Source: Citrobacter enshiensis
Lineage (GTDB): Bacteria; Pseudomonadota; Gammaproteobacteria; Enterobacterales; Enterobacteriaceae
Direction: 5' to 3'
Assembly: GCF_029338175.1 (NCBI RefSeq)
Contig: NZ_CP119862.1
Location: 1,984,001 to 2,048,000, forward strand
Length of the DNA: 64,000 nt
Made by a program: the position numbers and the translations under genes. Shown one piece after another: positions 488 to 8,691 of the stretch (position 1 is the stretch's first letter; each line of letters opens with the position of its first letter). The notes beneath the pieces are model-generated. The model worked only from the letters and a program-made list of their open reading frames with translations. It was not told the DNA's origin and did no database searches.

Positions 488-1311
488 TCAATTGACGCTG
501 GTCCAGACTTCAAGAACACCCGGTGAAACTCTGGCGGTATATCCATCGACAAAGGCGACACTCAGCTTAATGAAGCCTGGCCATTCCGCCGTTGCGTTGT
601 ACTCTGTGGCTAATTGTTTGGCGAGCTCCGCATCTTCTTTATGAAAATAACGTACCTGATTGATTCCTACGGCCTGGGCTGTACGTTCACGCTCCTGCGC
701 GCGGCCTCCGGAATATTCCAGTGACGCTTTTCAAGCGCTGTTGAAACGTCTATTACCGCCTGTCGTGCTAGTGTCCCGGCAAATTGGACAGATACTGTAT
801 TGCGCGAATCCGGAAAAGGAAGGTTCTGTTTATTGCTGTTTTGCTCTTCTTTCCTGGGAGCTTCCACTATTGTTGTCGGGATGGATTTACCCAATGGACA
901 TCCCTGAGACCAGGGCTCGACAAAACATTTCGCCTCGACCACAAATACGGCGGGGGTGCGGAGCAGTGCCTGCATCCAGAACAGAGAAACCGTGATCAGT
1001 AAAAGGGTTGTGACATACCAAAGGATGATGCGGGGAAGGATACTGCCATCGAGGACTTTAAAAAAAATAACGATACCTGCAGCCAAAATTAAAAATATGA
1101 TTAAAGAGTAAGTGAGCTCAGAGAAACTCATTTCACTTATCTTGCCATAAGAACCCGTAATCCAGGTAAAACTTAAGAGCAAAAGAAGAAAGACCGAAAT
1201 CACCAGTCCCAATCGTGCGTCCTGGTGTTGAATATTAGTGAGTAGCCATTTAACAGGGGGGATACCGAAGCGCAAATTGTGTTGATCGGTGTTATCTGAT
1301 TTATCCGTCAT
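488..1311 (-). CDS. Inner-membrane protein of unknown function, one frameshift
   Basis: I do not recognise this family. Three hydrophobic segments lie at about residues 33-52, 66-86 and 92-113, followed by a soluble tail. The open frame stops at 667, but a neighbouring frame continues with clearly coding sequence (QVRYFHKEDAELAKQLATEY, then GFIKLSVAFVDGY) to a TGA at 488. The shift lies in the GC-rich run near 695-705. The gene sits 119 bases upstream of the peptidoglycan-binding gene on the same strand and may work with it at the envelope; that link is inferred from position only. Confidence 0.6.
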
Positions 1312-1650
1312 GTTTTTTATCTCTCAGTAAAATCAAATGTTGTTAATCATTTTGATAGATAAAAAACGTCTGAAAGGTAAGTGTGGCGTATGGTTTATTA
1401 TTTTAATATCAACCATATTGATTATGGATGAACCTGGCAGCACGTTTGGATGCAGGTATTTGCGAATTGTTTAAAAATATAAAACAGTTGCAGGTGTGAG
1501 TATATCCGTGATGATAAACACCTAATGCGTGATTTGCATTGCTAATAGCATGTCGAAATAAAAAGACTATTACTTTTATATTTGGGCGCTCAACAGCGAA
1601 TCGCCACGGATACTCCAGACATTTCAGATTGGCCTATGATGATGATCATG

Positions 1651-1674
1651 ACCCGGTAGACGATGCTACCGGGT
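1651..1674. terminator. Stem-loop, probable terminator after the YfcC-type gene
   Basis: A perfect 9-base stem (ACCCGGTAG/CTACCGGGT) with a 6-base loop lies 34 bases past the stop of the YfcC-type gene. No strong T-run follows on either strand, so the call rests on stem and position. The rest of the gap 1312-1707 is AT-rich and shows no gene I can support. Confidence 0.5.
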
Positions 1675-1707
1675 ATTACTGTCTGTTTCTGACACTCAGC
1701 TATCGGT

Positions 1708-3105
1708 TTAAACGGTCCCCCAGTTAATCGCCACGCCAATCAGCAGCATGATGACGCAAATGACAAACCAGATGGCGATCACCGGTGCCACAAAGCGCAA
1801 CCATTTGCCATAAGGCACACCGGCAGTGGCTAATACTGCCATCAGAACACCGGAGGTTGGGTTCATACAGTTAACAATACCTTCGCCGAGCAAGACCGCC
1901 TGGACCATCACTTGACGCGTCAGACCAAGGTTATCGCCAAGCGGGGAGAAGATCGGGATCAACAGTGCTGATTCGCCGGAACCCGAAGATATCCCGAAAT
2001 GAATCAACGCTGCACTGATAAACATCCCGAGGGTCGCCGCATGTATCGGCACTGGCTCCAGCAAATTGGATAAGCTCCCGACAATCGGGTCCAGCACGTT
2101 GCCTTGCTGCAACACCAGTGAAATGGCTGCGGCCATACCGACGATAAATGCGCCTTTTACCAGCTTCGAACAGCCCGTGAGAAAGGTATTCGCAATATCC
2201 GATCCGGACAGGCGGCCAATGAGTCCTACTATTATCGTCAGCAGGATAAACATCGCCGACATCTCATTGGTGCCCCAATGGAATTGTATCGTCCCGGCTA
2301 TAAACAGGATCAGTGCCAGCACGGTGGTGGCTAAAATCCATTTATGGCGCCCCGTCACGTTCAACACGTCTTTGCCTGAAGTTTCCTGAGTGGGGCGCAA
2401 AAAGCCCAGCTGCCGGGTACGGCGTATTGACCAAATCAAATAGGCGGCAGCAGTAATGATAAACAACAGGCAGGTGATGCTACGCAACAACATGCCGGAA
2501 AAGAGCGGTAACTGCGCCAGATGCTGTGTGAGTCCCGTCGTCGCAGGATTGAGGATCGCCACATTAAAGCCCGCGGCGCAGGTCAGATAGACTAACGATG
2601 CCCCCAGTATTGGCGGCAAGCCCATCGAACGCGCGATCAGCAACCCAATGGGCACAAACGCGACCACGGCATTCACCACGACGCCAGTGGTACCGAGAAG
2701 GCCGAAGATAGCGGCAAAGATCAGCACGAGCCATTTGTCGCTGAGTTTCGTGCTGTGTGATAAAGAGTTAAGCGCGGTAGCAATGGCACCGGTTTTTTCG
2801 ATAACGGCTAGCACGCCACCCGTAAACAGAATCAGAAAAATAATCGACGCTTGTTTTACCATGCCTTTGGCAATCGCCGTGAAGATTTCCAGCGGATAGA
2901 CGCCACTTTGCGCAACGGCATGCAGGCTGCCTTTCACCGCAAACTTGATACCGTCACGCGTTTCATAATCATAAACGCCAGCGGGAATAATCCAGGTCGC
3001 GACGGCGGCAAGCACCAGGATAATAAACAGCAACAGATAGGGGCTTTGCCCTTTATCCTGCAAGGAGACCGGAGGTGAGTACGAATCAACGTGGGATTGC
3101 GTCAT
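1708..3105 (-). CDS. YfcC-type transporter (DcuC/YfcC superfamily), probably for amino acids or short peptides
   Basis: An intact 465-residue membrane protein with about 12 hydrophobic segments. The N-terminus has the PYLLLFIILVLAAVATWIIP signature of YfcC proteins, and the second half carries the re-entrant-type motif SSGSGESALLIPIF followed by NCMNPTSG, both typical of this family. Relatives are thought to carry basic amino acids, dipeptides or dicarboxylates; the substrate here cannot be read from sequence. Its start overlaps the last four bases of the M20 peptidase gene (ATGA), so the two are translationally coupled. Import of a small peptide or acyl-amino acid for cytoplasmic cleavage is the natural inference. 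Confidence 0.85.
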   Translation of the reverse strand: MTQSHVDSYSPPVSLQDKGQSPYLLLFIILVLAAVATWIIPAGVYDYETRDGIKFAVKGSLHAVAQSGVYPLEIFTAIAKGMVKQASIIFLILFTGGVLAVIEKTGAIATALNSLSHSTKLSDKWLVLIFAAIFGLLGTTGVVVNAVVAFVPIGLLIARSMGLPPILGASLVYLTCAAGFNVAILNPATTGLTQHLAQLPLFSGMLLRSITCLLFIITAAAYLIWSIRRTRQLGFLRPTQETSGKDVLNVTGRHKWILATTVLALILFIAGTIQFHWGTNEMSAMFILLTIIVGLIGRLSGSDIANTFLTGCSKLVKGAFIVGMAAAISLVLQQGNVLDPIVGSLSNLLEPVPIHAATLGMFISAALIHFGISSGSGESALLIPIFSPLGDNLGLTRQVMVQAVLLGEGIVNCMNPTSGVLMAVLATAGVPYGKWLRFVAPVIAIWFVICVIMLLIGVAINWGTV

Positions 3106-4235
3106 GGTTTCCCCCCTTCAGCAATGATCCCCGCCACTAATGCCGCACGTAGTGGCACATCGGCGATGTTGATATGTTCATGCTTAGCATGGATCCCGGA
3201 ACCGGTCGCACCAAGGCCATCCAGCGTGGGTAAACCGAGCGCGGCAGTAAAATTGCCGTCGCTGCCGCCGCCAACGCTCTCGCCGTCCACGGTGAAGCTT
3301 AGTGCTTCTGCTACATGCTGCGCCCGTGTCAATAACGTGCGGGCTGCGGGCGTCTGGCGCATCGGTGGACGACCCTGACCACCGCTGACCTGCAGCGTGA
3401 TGCGCGGGTCGTAGGGGCGCAATTGGCAAATCGCTTCATGAATACTCGCGGCTTCTTCCTGCGAAGTGACTCGAGTGTCTATGCCGAGATAGGCGCGATC
3501 GGCCACCACATTGAAGCGGCTGCCGCCGTTGGCGATCCCTACGTTGACGGTAGTGCCACGCTCAGGCGCATTGAGGCTATTCAGATAGAGAATGTGCTGC
3601 GCCATCTCTTGTATTGCGCTGGCGCCTTCTTCTGGATTATTCCCGGCATGCGCCGCCAGCCCGTGGATGGTTATTTCATAGTGTCCCGTGCCTTTTCGCG
3701 CGACTTTAAGCGCGCCGCTGCCCGCGACGGCTGGTTCAACGACTAACACCTGCGCGGAACCGCGCGCATGTGTTTCAATCCATTCACGCGAGCTCGGGCT
3801 GCCCAGCTCTTCGTCACTGTTACACAGGAATACGATACGCTGGTGTCCGAGTAAGTTGAGCTGTTGCAACGCGCGCACCGCCCAGATGGCCTGCACCAGC
3901 CCGGATTTCATATCGAGAATACCCGGCCCATATAATTTACCGTCTTCCTCGCGAAGGACCAGCACACCCTTGTCCCATACCGTATCGAAGTGACCTATCA
4001 GCGTCGTTTGCGGCCCATCGCTACCAAGAGTGAATTTACGGTGGTTGCCGTAATGTAGTTGCTCATCGATTTCCGCCTGTACACCTAAACGCTCCCGAAA
4101 AATGTCCTCCAGAACCCGGCCACACGCATCAACGGCAGTTTTATCATGTGATGGGGATTCTGCCAGTACCAACCGTTTAATATCATTCAGGATGTCTGAT
4201 GCGTGTTGTTGCAGGTACGTTTTTATATTTTTCAT
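3102..4235 (-). CDS. M20 family metallopeptidase (glutamate carboxypeptidase-like)
   Basis: A zinc-dependent hydrolase of the M20 family, 377 residues. Metal and catalytic motifs are in order: GHFDTVW (His), GPGILDMKSG (bridging Asp), NSDEELGSPSS (catalytic Glu pair), VVEPA (Glu) and the terminal IHAKHEHIN (His). The dimerisation domain lies between (HGLAAHAGNNPEEG). I chose ATG 4235, which begins MKNIKTYL and fits the family; the frame could extend upstream to 4364, but that stretch is not conserved-looking and overlaps the divergent regulator. It is first in an operon with the YfcC-type transporter. Family members release glutamate or other amino acids from N-acyl or peptide substrates in the cytoplasm. 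Confidence 0.85.
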   Translation of the reverse strand: MKNIKTYLQQHASDILNDIKRLVLAESPSHDKTAVDACGRVLEDIFRERLGVQAEIDEQLHYGNHRKFTLGSDGPQTTLIGHFDTVWDKGVLVLREEDGKLYGPGILDMKSGLVQAIWAVRALQQLNLLGHQRIVFLCNSDEELGSPSSREWIETHARGSAQVLVVEPAVAGSGALKVARKGTGHYEITIHGLAAHAGNNPEEGASAIQEMAQHILYLNSLNAPERGTTVNVGIANGGSRFNVVADRAYLGIDTRVTSQEEAASIHEAICQLRPYDPRITLQVSGGQGRPPMRQTPAARTLLTRAQHVAEALSFTVDGESVGGGSDGNFTAALGLPTLDGLGATGSGIHAKHEHINIADVPLRAALVAGIIAEGGKP

Positions 4236-4317
4236 GTATTTTTCCGTCTGTCTTGGTTGTAACAGGCAGTATGCGCAGAATTGGCATTGTAAAAAATGAG
4301 GAGTGATGATTATTATT

Positions 4318-4334
4318 GTTGCCCTGTGAGCAAC
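4318..4334. promoter_or_regulatory. Candidate LysR-regulator operator between the divergent genes
   Basis: A perfect inverted repeat GTTGC-N7-GCAAC lies in the 114-base gap between the divergent M20 and LysR genes, 16 bases before the LysR ATG. The shape suits a LysR-type dimer site (T-N11-A class). Binding by the neighbouring regulator is inferred. Confidence 0.5.
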
Positions 4335-4349
4335 GAATAAGCCAAAAAT

Positions 4350-5262
4350 ATGGACGTTCTCCACCTATCCAGAAAAATCCATCGGGTATTTGTATGAAGT
4401 TGGCGTACATGGCGGTATTCGACGTGCAGCCGATGCGCTGGGAATTAATCCCTCGGTAGTGAGCCGTCAGTTATCCGAACTGGAAAGAACGTTACAACTG
4501 CCGTTACTCGAACGACGTGGCCGCAACGTGGTATTAACGGATGTCGGGAAATTGCTGGCAGAAGATTATGCGCTGACGGTGCAACGTCGCAAACAACTCG
4601 AACGTCAGTTACAGGATTTGCGCCATATGCGCGGTGGGTCGGTGAACTTGCGCGTCGGTCAGGGCATGGTGGAGGAGGTGGTCAGACATGTCATCAGTGA
4701 ATTTTCCCTGGCGTATCCTGCGGTCTTCGTCAACATTCAGTCGGGCGATATGCAAACCACCCTCACGCTATTGGCTAAAGGGGAGGTGGATATGTCGGTG
4801 AGTTTTGGTCCGTCCGCGCCACCGGGTTTGAAGTGTAACAGTTTCCGGCGTGGACCGATTTGCGCCATTGTACCGCCCAATCATCCTGTCGCCGCTTTCC
4901 CCGTTGTCACTGCCGAAGAATTAACGCGCCACCGCTTAATCGTCATGAGCGAAGATTTTGGTATACAGCGCTATTTGAACGCCATTTTTAAAAATGAGGG
5001 GCTTATTTTTACGCCCGCATACCGCTGTAATCTGTTTACCAGCGCTATCGCCTTATGCCAGACCGGACAAGGGGTGGCATTTATGACGCCGCAAACATTG
5101 AAAAGCATTCAATTTCGCGAGCAATTGGTGGCTGTCCCTATTGATCATCGTATTGCTCGTGAAAGTTTGTGTCATTTGTTGCGCTCTAATGATCACCGTA
5201 TGACGCCAGCGGCAAATTATCTGTGGCGTTTATTAAATAGTTATTTTGCCGGGTTACCCTAA
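4350..5262 (+). CDS. LysR-family transcriptional regulator, one frameshift near the start
   Basis: DNA-binding regulator with an N-terminal winged helix-turn-helix (GGIRRAADALGINPSVVSRQ, then LPLLERRGRNVVLTDVG) and a periplasmic-binding-like effector domain. The uninterrupted frame has only a TTG start at 4390, inside the helix-turn-helix. ATG 4350 gives the normal LysR beginning (MDVLHLSRK) if one G is removed from the GGG at 4384-4386, so the N-terminus is most likely hidden by an extra base. It is divergent from the M20/YfcC operon and is its likely regulator. Confidence 0.82.
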
Positions 5263-5316
5263 CGGTAATATTGATGGGGATTACGCTCACGAACGCCATA
5301 AACCGCGACGTTGCGG

Positions 5317-5712
5317 TTATCTGCGAATGGGCATAGTTGTCATGAACCCTCCGCGGGCGGGATTATTCATAAATCCGTTACGGGCGGGATTGTTCATAAA
5401 TCCATCACGTGCAGGGTTGCCGATGAAGCCATCGCGGGCAGGATTTCCGCTGCGCATACCAAAGCTATCAATGATGACGGGATCAACGATGACGACGTGG
5501 TGAGAACCAAAGGGGCGGATCTTCCTGTTTTGTGCGTTAAGCGTAAAACCGATGTCTCCACCGAGACTGTTTAGACCATTACCGGTAATCACCGCGATGC
5601 GTAATTCTCGCTCCCTTTCCGCCTGGTGCTGCAGGGCGCTGGCTGCGGCATAAGAGGAGGCCATCAGAAGTAGCGCAAGGGCGATGGATGAAGACGCCCG
5701 TAGCAGTTTCAT
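5317..5712 (-). CDS. Small secreted protein with four NPAR-x-GF nonapeptide repeats
   Basis: I do not recognise this protein. Its 131 residues start with a clear signal peptide (MKLLRASSSIALALLLMASS, cleavage near ASA at about 26). A middle part has LGGDIGFTLNAQN and VVIVDPVIIDSFG. The C-terminus has four tandem nine-residue units built on NPARDGF at residues 89-124, ending MPIRR. The frame is intact although neighbouring genes are broken, and a signal peptide plus repeats argue that it is real. It lies back to back with the DUF1571 gene, 94 bases apart. Location is probably periplasmic or extracellular; function is unknown. Confidence 0.6.
   Translation of the reverse strand: MKLLRASSSIALALLLMASSYAAASALQHQAERERELRIAVITGNGLNSLGGDIGFTLNAQNRKIRPFGSHHVVIVDPVIIDSFGMRSGNPARDGFIGNPARDGFMNNPARNGFMNNPARGGFMTTMPIRR
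5341..5448 (-). repeat. Four 27-base tandem units coding the NPAR-x-GF repeats
   Basis: Four in-frame 27-base units encode GNPARDGFI, GNPARDGFM, NNPARNGFM and NNPARGGFM. The protein copies are more alike than the DNA copies, which suggests the amino-acid pattern is what is kept. Confidence 0.75.
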
Positions 5713-5806
5713 GATTAATCCTCATTTAAAGTGTGGTTAATAAAGTATAGCTTTTTGCTGGCACGACACTCGGTTTGGGCGGTTCAAATAAGCACTATAC
5801 TGACAA

Positions 5807-6559
5807 ATGACAGCAGGTGATGGTTCCTGTTTGCTGACCACCTTAAGGCAGGAGACGGTCATTAGCGGCTTAATCTCTCCAGCGGTAATGTGTGCGACAT
5901 TACTCTTCTTTAGCGGTATGACGCATCCGGCGGAAAATGTCGCCGTGGCATCTGCTTTTTCGCAAAACGTAAAGACGACCAACCTGATCGATCTCTCCCA
6001 GCAACAATTCGAACACATTCAATCTTACCAGGTACTGTTGCGCTCCTCGTCACCTCAGGATGAAAGCAAAGTTATTCGCTATAGCTATCGCAAACCGGGA
6101 TTTGTGAGGATGGATTTTACCCGGCCACACCCCGGCGCGGTTCTTACCTATAACCCGGTCAGTCGTAAAGTGAAGTTATGGCCCTTTGGGTTGGGGACAT
6201 TTCCGGTGTTGAACCTTTCCCCGACAGATTCATTGATACAAGACGATCACGGTCACCGGGTGGATCAATCAGACATCGGCGTATTGCTGAGCAATATTCG
6301 CCGGTTACAGCACGATGGGACAACCGTGACTGTCGGTGAAGAGACGCTGGCGGGACGCGCCACATTACATCTGTCCGTGACGGGACCCAAAGGTGTGAGT
6401 GTCGATGACGTTAATCGGTATGAGATTTGGTTAGATAAATCTCATGGACTCCCGGCCAAAGTTGTCAGCTACGACCGGCAGGGAAAACTGCTGGAAACCG
6501 TCCTGATGGATGCCATGGTGATCAACATTCAGTTCCCCGCTGATTTTTTCACACCGTAA
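5807..6559 (+). CDS. Exported DUF1571/LolA-like outer-membrane-lipoprotein-sorting fold protein
   Basis: A 250-residue protein with a hydrophobic N-terminal stretch (about residues 18-47) suggesting export, followed by a LolA-like or DUF1571-type domain: YSYRKPGFVRMDFTRPHPGA, then VLTYNPVSRKVKLWP, and a later YEIWLDKSHGLPAKVVSYD. Such folds bind lipid-like molecules in the periplasm; the ligand is unknown. The start is uncertain: ATG 5807 has no good ribosome site, and internal ATGs at 5888 and 5918 would shorten the signal. The SRPBCC gene follows after 15 bases, so the two are co-transcribed. Confidence 0.6.
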   Translation: MTAGDGSCLLTTLRQETVISGLISPAVMCATLLFFSGMTHPAENVAVASAFSQNVKTTNLIDLSQQQFEHIQSYQVLLRSSSPQDESKVIRYSYRKPGFVRMDFTRPHPGAVLTYNPVSRKVKLWPFGLGTFPVLNLSPTDSLIQDDHGHRVDQSDIGVLLSNIRRLQHDGTTVTVGEETLAGRATLHLSVTGPKGVSVDDVNRYEIWLDKSHGLPAKVVSYDRQGKLLETVLMDAMVINIQFPADFFTP

Positions 6560-6574
6560 TGGGAGTTTAGGTTT

Positions 6575-7061
6575 ATGGCTGAATACCAGTTTACTACCAC
6601 CTGGCGGGTTGAAGCGTCGGTACAGGAGGTGTGGGACGTGCTCTCACATCCTGACCACTGGCCTGAGTGGTGGGCAAGTCTGGAGCGGATCATTGAAATC
6701 GAAAAAGGGGATATTCAGGGGATCGGGGCGTTGCATCGTTATACCTGGAAAGGGGGCCTTACCTTATCGATTAACCTTCGACATCCATGTATTGAACATC
6801 ACCCCTTTTTATCTGCTGGAAGGGGAAGCCAGTGGTGAAGTTGAAGGGCGCGGAGTGTGGTCATTTTCAGGTAATGGGATGGAAACGATTGTCAGGTATG
6901 ACTGGAATATTCGGACCAACACCCGGTGGATGAACTATCTTGCGCCCCTGGCGGCTCCCGTTTTTCGCTGGAACCATCTTACCGTGATGCGCGATGGTGC
7001 AAAGGGGTTGGCCCGAAAATTGGGCAAAAATGTCGAAATGTACTGTGTCGACAACGGGTAA
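6575..7061 (+). CDS. SRPBCC (START/Bet v1-like) ligand-binding protein, one frameshift
   Basis: The N-terminus FTTTWRVEASVQEVWDVLSH, with PDHWPEWW after it, is the hallmark of SRPBCC proteins, which enclose a hydrophobic ligand. The frame breaks at 6757-6758, where one extra C in a GGGGGCC run shifts reading; the next frame continues LPYRLTFDIHVLNITPFYLL to the end (GLARKLGKNVEMYCV). Corrected length is about 161 residues. ATG 6575 has a GGGAG ribosome site. It is paired with the DUF1571 gene upstream; two lipid-handling folds together suggest a shared small hydrophobic ligand, which is inference. Confidence 0.75.
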
Positions 7062-7085
7062 TACACGATCGTATTACCCTTTTTT
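7056..7085 (+). terminator. Rho-independent terminator of the DUF1571/SRPBCC operon
   Basis: A perfect 9-base stem GGGTAATAC/GTATTACCC with a 6-base loop and six T residues overlaps the SRPBCC stop codon. It separates this operon from the convergent sigma-factor gene. Confidence 0.85.
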
Positions 7086-7094
7086 GACATCACC

Positions 7095-7814
7095 TTACTC
7101 TGTTTTTGGGTTGGACAGCCCTTCGGCTTTTGCTCTGTCCAGCACACCTGCAACGATCCTATCGCACCGTGCGCCATCAAACGCGAAGGTGTCGTTCAGT
7201 GCGATATCCATTTGGCTGGCCAGTCCCTCACGGAGCAGGCTGCGGGCGCGAAAGAAACGGGTTCGCACCGTCGCTTCGGGGATATCCAGCGCGTGAGAAA
7301 TCTGTTCCACGCTCAGTTCCTCGACCGCCCGGAGCATGAAGACCGTACGAAAAGCCTCGGGCAGTAAGTCGATACGGGCTTCCAGAAGTTGGCGCATTTG
7401 GGTTTGCATCACGGCATAGTCCGGGTGATGTTCAGGATTATCGCTTAACGATGCCTGGATGTCAGAGTCAATGGCATTCATGGCAGCATCCAGGGGAATT
7501 ACGGAAGCGGTTTTTCGCCTCAGACGTCCCAATGATTCATTCACCACAATACGCACCAGCCAGGTTGAAAGCGTGGCCTCAGAACGAAACCCCTTCAGTG
7601 CGCGCCAGGCGTTCAGATAGGCTTCCTGCAGCGCATCTTCGGCCTCCGCATCGTTCTTTAAAATGCTGCGTGCGGTCCGAAACAGGAGTCGGTTGTGGCG
7701 ACGCATGATTTCCGTAAATGCCGACGTATCCCCCAATGCTGCTCGTGAGACGAGATCAGGATCGGGGGTATGGGCCGACAGCAGGCCAGATGACTGAGAT
7801 TGTGTATTCGGCAT
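7095..7814 (-). CDS. ECF-family RNA polymerase sigma factor
   Basis: An alternative sigma factor of about 239 residues with region 2 (AFTEIMRRHNRLLFRTARSI, DAEDALQEAYLNAWRAL) and region 4 (LLPEAFRTVFMLRAVEELSV, ISHALDIPEATVRTRFFRAR). The tail after region 4 is about 40 residues longer than minimal ECF factors. No anti-sigma gene is visible next to it: the gene upstream on the same strand is a flavin reductase, followed by two membrane proteins. It may direct its own operon; the inducing signal is unknown. Confidence 0.88.
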   Translation of the reverse strand: MPNTQSQSSGLLSAHTPDPDLVSRAALGDTSAFTEIMRRHNRLLFRTARSILKNDAEAEDALQEAYLNAWRALKGFRSEATLSTWLVRIVVNESLGRLRRKTASVIPLDAAMNAIDSDIQASLSDNPEHHPDYAVMQTQMRQLLEARIDLLPEAFRTVFMLRAVEELSVEQISHALDIPEATVRTRFFRARSLLREGLASQMDIALNDTFAFDGARCDRIVAGVLDRAKAEGLSNPKTE

Positions 7815-7865
7815 AGTGTCTCCCGTGTTCGGTACCTGTTTTTCGCGGCGACAGTGGATACCGCG

Positions 7866-8591
7866 TTAGTAACCGTAAAACGTTTCACTGCGCACGTTGT
7901 CCTCATCGATGCCGGACATCGTGAGCGTTTGGCGCATGGCCTCAACCAACGCGGGTGGACCGGAAACGTAGAAGGCCGGGTTATCCAGCCCTGTGACAAC
8001 CTGCTTAATCCAGTCACTGTCGATGATCTGCGTTGCGCCATCCCAGGATTGGGTCGAATGCGCCATATCCGTCATGGTCGCCATTAACTGAAATCGCTGA
8101 TTCTGCTGCTCCAGCTGCTGTAACTCCTCCAGAAAGGCTGTGTCTTCGGGGTGATGATTGCTATACAGCAGGATCAATTGCTGCGGCGTTTGCTGTTGGG
8201 CTGCGTGGCGTAACATGCCCATGAAGGGAGTGATCCCGATCCCCCCGGCGATGAGAACAGCCGTGCGTTCTGTATTTTTGGGTAAGGTGAATGATCCAAA
8301 AGGGCCATTGATCTGAACTTCAGTCCCAATGGGCAAGGCACACAACGTACGTTTAAAAACGCTCTCGCCGATGCGAGTCGCGACCACCAGTTCGTCCTCC
8401 TCGGGTGCAGTGACAATGGAAAAGGTGTGGCGGGTATCCGATGACCGGGTGTCAGTTTGATGTCCCGGCAGAATGAGATCTATGGCTTGCCCCGGTTTGT
8501 GGCTGAACCCGACGGGTTTTTCGAAGTGGAAGGCCATAGTGCCTTTTGCAATCTGGCGGCATGCAGTCAGATGAACGTTATACTCGGCCAT
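7866..8591 (-). CDS. Ferredoxin-NADP reductase-type FAD/NAD(P)H oxidoreductase
   Basis: A 241-residue flavoprotein. The FAD-binding barrel shows RHTFSIV (flavin contact of the RxYS class, with F in place of Y). The nucleotide domain shows LIAGGIGITPFMGMLRH and the terminal YVSGPPALVEAM, the standard pyridine-nucleotide motifs. There is no iron-sulfur or haem domain, so it must pass electrons to or from a separate partner. Encoded just upstream of the sigma factor (51 bases), it probably shares its transcript. The electron partner is not evident here. Confidence 0.83.
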   Translation of the reverse strand: MAEYNVHLTACRQIAKGTMAFHFEKPVGFSHKPGQAIDLILPGHQTDTRSSDTRHTFSIVTAPEEDELVVATRIGESVFKRTLCALPIGTEVQINGPFGSFTLPKNTERTAVLIAGGIGITPFMGMLRHAAQQQTPQQLILLYSNHHPEDTAFLEELQQLEQQNQRFQLMATMTDMAHSTQSWDGATQIIDSDWIKQVVTGLDNPAFYVSGPPALVEAMRQTLTMSGIDEDNVRSETFYGY

Positions 8592-8691
8592 GATGAAACT
8601 CCGGTGTTAAGCTGATGAAGGTGTTTTTACCCTGAACAAAACACCTTCTCTCAGCACCTCAGCGTCGATCTTAGGGATAATGACCTTGTGA

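Follow-up and report, generated by a model that had tools for sequence, protein, structure and literature searches.

A narrowly distributed, putatively exported enterobacterial protein family with strongly constrained NPARxGF repeats

INTRODUCTION

CsgF (PF10614), a curli accessory protein, is small and exported and contains a short NPxxGxF-like peptide, properties that liken it to the probably exported NPAR-repeat protein (NPAR) described here. The CsgF segment, NPNFGGNPNNGAF, is N-terminal, as seen in CsgF loci, and binds inside CsgG, whereas the NPAR repeats are C-terminal. We rejected a relationship between the two proteins on an hhalign probability of 0.3% and an E value of 0.13 (3 of 6 CsgF loci).

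NPAR members share with YajC (PF02699) a short stretch of the form Q..R...L..L..G..V...GG that follows a hydrophobic helix. Pfam scores to YajC were weak in 9 of 19 NPAR members and below the cutoff wherever shown (the best reached 14.9 bits, against a cutoff of 28.2), and hhalign, with 22 YajC loci used out of 30 obtained for 37 matches, gave a probability of 5.6% over 23 of 118 columns; eight column-shuffled controls gave 0.1 to 0.5%. NPAR repeats were not seen in the four YajC sequences inspected, and this relation was also rejected.

The LolA/RseB superfamily is represented at the locus by a neighboring gene, which Pfam and a fold search place there; NPAR itself had no match to it. An earlier note, drawn from the letters of the DNA, had described NPAR as belonging to no recognized family, and database searches agree. 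In the window, by which we mean the whole 64,000-nucleotide stretch of Citrobacter enshiensis DNA analyzed, the protein had no match that was significant or above the cutoff in Pfam, NCBIfam, PHROGs, or PADLOC (0 families), and a sequence search of the PDB returned no match to it. The 19 known members produced only Pfam matches with E values of 0.016 or worse; 10 were scanned singly, all with scores below the cutoff. The papers searched contained no occurrence of NPARDGF or NPARGGF; a search by the names of the neighbors found nothing, and a broad one brought up a single unrelated review. We tentatively propose that NPAR is an envelope protein expressed under stress and that its repeated linear motif may bind one conserved partner, with copy number tuning avidity.

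RESULTS

NPAR is encoded on the minus strand (5317 to 5712) by an ORF of 131 amino acids with an ATG start and homologues in other genomes. Residues 1 to 26 (5635 to 5712, minus strand) form a probable signal peptide, with a lysine at position 2, a hydrophobic core at residues 8 to 18, and the sequence ASA before a likely cleavage point near residue 26; by inspection and hydropathy, a comparable signal-like N terminus occurs in 19 of 19 NPAR sequences, in agreement with the earlier note. A lipoprotein cysteine at the cleavage site is not conserved (none of the 19 sequences has a cysteine from residue 26 onward, and 5 have one at residue 21). The middle region (residues 27 to 89; 5446 to 5634, minus strand) is moderately hydrophobic and, judging from charge-hydropathy, possibly folded; its AF2 model is of low confidence. 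The four repeats that the earlier note had counted are nonapeptides of the form NPARxGF at residues 90 to 125 (5338 to 5445, minus strand; units at 5419 to 5445, 5392 to 5418, 5365 to 5391, and 5338 to 5364). They read, in order, NPARDGFIG, NPARDGFMN, NPARNGFMN, and NPARGGFMT and are followed by the C-terminal tail TMPIRR and the stop codon (5317 to 5337, minus strand). At the DNA level, the copies are 27 nt each, at an exact 27-nt spacing, and are 63 to 74% identical to the reference copy when computed in a register offset by 2 nt from the protein units. When the mature part was shuffled 200,000 times, at least one NPAR.GF match arose in 11 trials and two arose in none.

The homologues indicate that NPAR is a real gene and a member of a narrowly distributed family. 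Including the window's own, 19 NPAR sequences were found, in all three genomes sampled from the window's genus (the window's own, Citrobacter sp. R56, and Citrobacter sp. Awk 4) and in 16 of 17 genomes of a second genus of Enterobacteriaceae. The earlier note would have counted its reading as refuted had no other strain carried a homologue with intact signal and repeats; each of the 18 further sequences has a signal-like N terminus and at least two motif copies. The exception, second-genus genome G399, in which NPAR was not found, suggests that the protein is dispensable. A search with the single protein matched 8 of 392 family genomes, of which 7 were real (3 from the window's genus and 4 from the second); the eighth, G139, was a weak chance match (E value of 0.006, with 35% identity across 40 residues in a frame of 371). 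Plus-strand matches were excluded from the homologue count. When a profile built from the 19 sequences was run against 394 genomes of the order and 321 of the class, it hit two of the former, which belong to the known genera, and one of the latter, that of the window, with none elsewhere; these collections, like the family set, are samples, and rare occurrence elsewhere is possible. At the DNA level, E. coli had no match to window positions 4700 to 8600. We also considered a mobile-element origin and rejected it: a plasmid search gave no NPAR match, a phage search with the second-genus protein gave none, and the 30 viral-contig stretches that fit a pattern yielded no confirmed NPAR.

Copy number follows genus. 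Each own-genus protein contains four copies in 131 amino acids (3 of 3), and the second-genus proteins have two in 112 to 114 amino acids (16 of 16), so that the survey of repeat number proposed in the earlier note, carried out across the sampled species, revealed no variation within either genus. In 5 of the 16 second-genus sequences, GRF or GSF replaces GGF at the end of the second copy. One second-genus homologue (L033, 1501 to 1842) starts at the same place with GTG instead of ATG.

Constraint is concentrated in the repeats. We calculated pN/pS as Nei-Gojobori proportions, pooled over pairs sharing ancestry and without a tree; the own-genus values, including 0.18 for the whole gene, come from three sequences, and the alignment used for comparisons with the second genus has a gap opposite the two inner own-genus copies. 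On this basis, the repeat region (residues 89 to 124) had pN/pS values of 0.023 within the window's genus, 0.118 within the second genus, and 0.113 between genera, the lowest of four regions in all three comparisons, and the middle region had values of 0.268, 0.259, and 0.445. Synonymous divergence in the repeats was substantial, with pS values of 0.355, 0.650, and 0.772, respectively, the highest of any region in the second-genus and between-genera comparisons and, within the window's genus, second to the short tail (0.388). The combination of low pN/pS and diverged synonymous sites points to selection on the peptide and not on the DNA, which substantiates the protein-level conservation across diverged DNA units that the earlier note had perceived. 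All 19 sequences share the residues N90, P91, A92, R93, G113, F114, N117, P118, A119, R120, G121, F123, P128, R130, and R131. Units that bear an aspartate are charge-neutral, and thus the constraint does not merely serve to maintain a basic tail.

The flanking genes differ between the two genera. A divergent LolA/RseB-superfamily gene with a hydrophobic N terminus lies at 5807 to 6559 (plus strand; PF03888 [MucB_RseB], 25.6 bits against a cutoff of 22.3), and Foldseek, run on a low-confidence model of its product, placed DUF1329, LolA, RseB, and MucB among the leading matches at TM-scores of about 0.2 to 0.3. A CTATACT box (5795 to 5807, plus strand) is directly upstream of the first ATG of this gene, and the true start is therefore probably further downstream. 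Next is an SRPBCC (Polyketide_cyc2) gene (6575 to 7061, plus strand), which in the window is divided into two frames of 87 and 150 amino acids (6575 to 6838 and 6609 to 7061) and in both genus relatives (L018 and L019) is a single frame of 161 amino acids; the split reflects either a genuine frameshift or a mistake in the assembly. The LolA-like and SRPBCC genes are the only neighbors found near NPAR in both genera.

In the window, the NPAR set sits between a LysR gene and an extracytoplasmic function (ECF) sigma factor gene. NPAR and the LysR gene are adjacent there; in Citrobacter sp. R56 (L018) they are separated by about 6.5 kb (approximately 660 to 7200), an insert that carries transketolase-domain and major facilitator superfamily (MFS) transporter genes. 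The stretch from 7095 to 8591 holds the ECF gene (NF008888) and, ahead of it on the same strand, a gene with an NAD-binding oxidoreductase domain, and no anti-sigma factor was recognized among the 10 window proteins scanned. In the second genus, the set lies beside a cluster of Gly, Cys, and Leu tRNA genes with pgsA and uvrC (the latter two identified by inspection) in 7 of 10 stretches; in the remaining 3 of 10, the tRNA cluster, pgsA, and uvrC were not in view. A transglutaminase-like gene (PF01841) lies beyond the set in all 10 stretches and was not found in the three own-genus genomes, in a search made without a positive control. Four second-genus stretches (L014, L055, L056, and L057) have a variable region by the LolA-like, SRPBCC, and transglutaminase-like cluster, beside the tRNA genes. 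L014 contains an IS1 transposase there, and a patatin-like gene occurs in L014, L055, and L056, with a piece in L057; these were not found in the other stretches.

One candidate partner is the LolA-like protein, and it is conceivable, if unlikely, that NPAR is its client or regulator, docking there through its tail in a pair that would sense or carry lipid. The neighbor has a LolA/RseB fold by Pfam and Foldseek, the pair is divergent in 3 of 3 own-genus genomes, and among the 16 second-genus genomes with NPAR the LolA-like gene is near full length in 10. In the other six, however, it is a C-terminal remnant (two genomes) or missing from the locus (four genomes), and a whole-genome search, in which the positive controls G399, G024, and G342 matched, found no LolA-like gene in those four and only remnants in the two. 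The gene also occurs where NPAR was not detected, in G399 (together with the SRPBCC gene) and in three genomes of other genera (G415, G065, and G073). Mature NPAR had the same pN/pS, 0.22, in the six genomes without an intact LolA-like gene (15 pairs) as in the 10 with one (45 pairs). Co-occurrence is thus not obligate, and since NPAR is kept under equal constraint without it, the LolA-like gene is a frequent companion of NPAR and not a needed partner. Of the earlier remark that NPAR sits back to back with lipid-fold genes, the identification of the neighbors (LolA/RseB type and then SRPBCC) stands and a functional link is not supported.

The repeats might instead fold within one small domain, in which case their conservation would be structural and not for binding. 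We regard this as rather unlikely. The middle region has sufficient hydrophobicity for folding, and NP turns at a regular nine-residue spacing could form a solenoid or hairpins, but two copies suffice in one genus where four are used in the other. In charge-hydropathy analysis, the middle region fell on the folded side and the repeat-plus-tail segment on the disordered side in 19 of 19 sequences. AF2 gave no confident fold for NPAR (pLDDT of 48.7 with 19 sequences), which is uninformative: the LolA-like neighbor, whose fold family is known, reached no more than 50.9 from a comparably shallow alignment (11 sequences), so the low value is no evidence of disorder.

Quite improbable, in our estimation, is the hypothesis that NPAR is a multicopy precursor from which proteases release NPARDGF-type peptides as signals or as growth inhibitors directed at neighboring cells. 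A signal-like N terminus and tandem units of very high conservation would suit such a precursor, as would the regularity of the residue after NPAR, which is aspartate in the first copy of 18 of 19 sequences (asparagine in one) and glycine in the last copy of all 19. No cleavage site is conserved, however: the two linker residues between units vary (IG, MN, IN, RN, RS, RH, or SS), and we found no positive evidence for the processing at the repeats that the earlier note had entertained. Nor do the two neighbors common to both genera favor it, the transglutaminase-like gene being the one that the own-genus search, run without a control, did not find; copy number, moreover, is fixed within each genus in our sample. 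Because no processing-like site is conserved between units, the precursor model is weaker than the binding model. We give little credence to a further reading in which NPARxGF would be a dedicated recognition code, carried by a stress-induced, exported protein that acts as a multivalent ligand or as a source of short secreted peptides, and read by a conserved enterobacterial receptor. To our knowledge, such peptide signaling has hardly been described in Enterobacteriaceae.

Upstream of NPAR is a sigma-S-like −10 element, GCTATACTTTA (5741 to 5751, minus strand), whose first base is 39 nt upstream of the start codon. The box occupies this position in 18 of 19 sequences and is at 40 nt in one; 16 of 19 sequences agree with KCTAYRCTTAA at 10 of its 11 positions, and the other 3 do so at 9. 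The stretch from box to start is conserved; further upstream there is little similarity between the two genera, and no common −35 element is evident by eye. In its treatment of sigma-S promoters, PMC5650638 gives KCTAYRCTTAA as the −10 consensus and CTATACT as an earlier version, and it describes these promoters as held to lack a −35 consensus, with dissenting proposals. Chance matches are common in 64 kb (6 one-mismatch sigma-S matches in the window against 4.07 expected, with 21 of 100 shuffles reaching 6), and a single match is accordingly not significant alone; TATACT also suits sigma-70. We take the box as moderate evidence that NPAR would be expressed in stationary phase. It might alternatively be an operator, since in 12 of 16 second-genus genomes (and 0 of 3 own-genus genomes) it lies within an inverted repeat, GCTAT-N6-ATAGC, which makes a repressor site possible. 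A sigma-70 scan of 5200 to 5900 detected one promoter-like site, on the opposite strand (0.9 expected). The one Rfam match (E value of 0.047, 19.7 bits against a cutoff of 38) was taken as chance.

It is very unlikely that the nearby ECF sigma factor, and not sigma-S, drives NPAR expression. The ECF gene is about 1.4 kb from NPAR in the window and is near it in both genus relatives, but it was not found in any of the 10 second-genus stretches (15 to 18 kb each), where the upstream box is conserved. On the basis of these stretches, the ECF gene whose proximity the earlier note had remarked on is not supported as functional context.

Scarcely credible, and largely refuted, is the idea that the importance of the repeats lies in their DNA or in a product of the antisense strand. 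A plus-strand ORF (5246 to 5503) does read NPxRAGL repeats that resemble the protein's own, and in 3 of 3 own-genus genomes no stop interrupts its frame across the repeats. The synonymous sites of the repeats are unconserved, however, and 15 of 16 second-genus sequences have a stop among the first 45 codons examined in that frame. Codons for NPARxGF yield NPxRAGF/L when the opposite strand is translated, so that the ORF is a coding shadow, with a curious self-complementarity.

DISCUSSION

We speculate that the binding model introduced above would operate as follows. A sigma-S-type promoter would direct the production of NPAR in stationary phase or under stress, and after removal of a Sec-type signal peptide the protein would remain in the periplasm or exit the cell. 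Its C-terminal tail would then display two or four NPAR-x-G-F copies (with a PIRR end in the window protein), every copy offering an identical NP turn, arginine, and phenylalanine to a single conserved target in the envelope, and a higher copy number would confer higher avidity. The target may be a protein or a surface polymer encoded outside the NPAR locus; a near-invariant repeated motif on a probably flexible exported tail, retained without any obligate neighbor, points to a target encoded elsewhere.

NPAR represents a lineage-restricted family that has no name in the libraries we searched and whose short repeat is under unusually strong constraint. Motifs like NPARxGF usually mark one specific binding surface, which makes the repeat a ready-made bait, and the natural two- and four-copy versions, together with species that have or lack the LolA-like neighbor, provide built-in controls.
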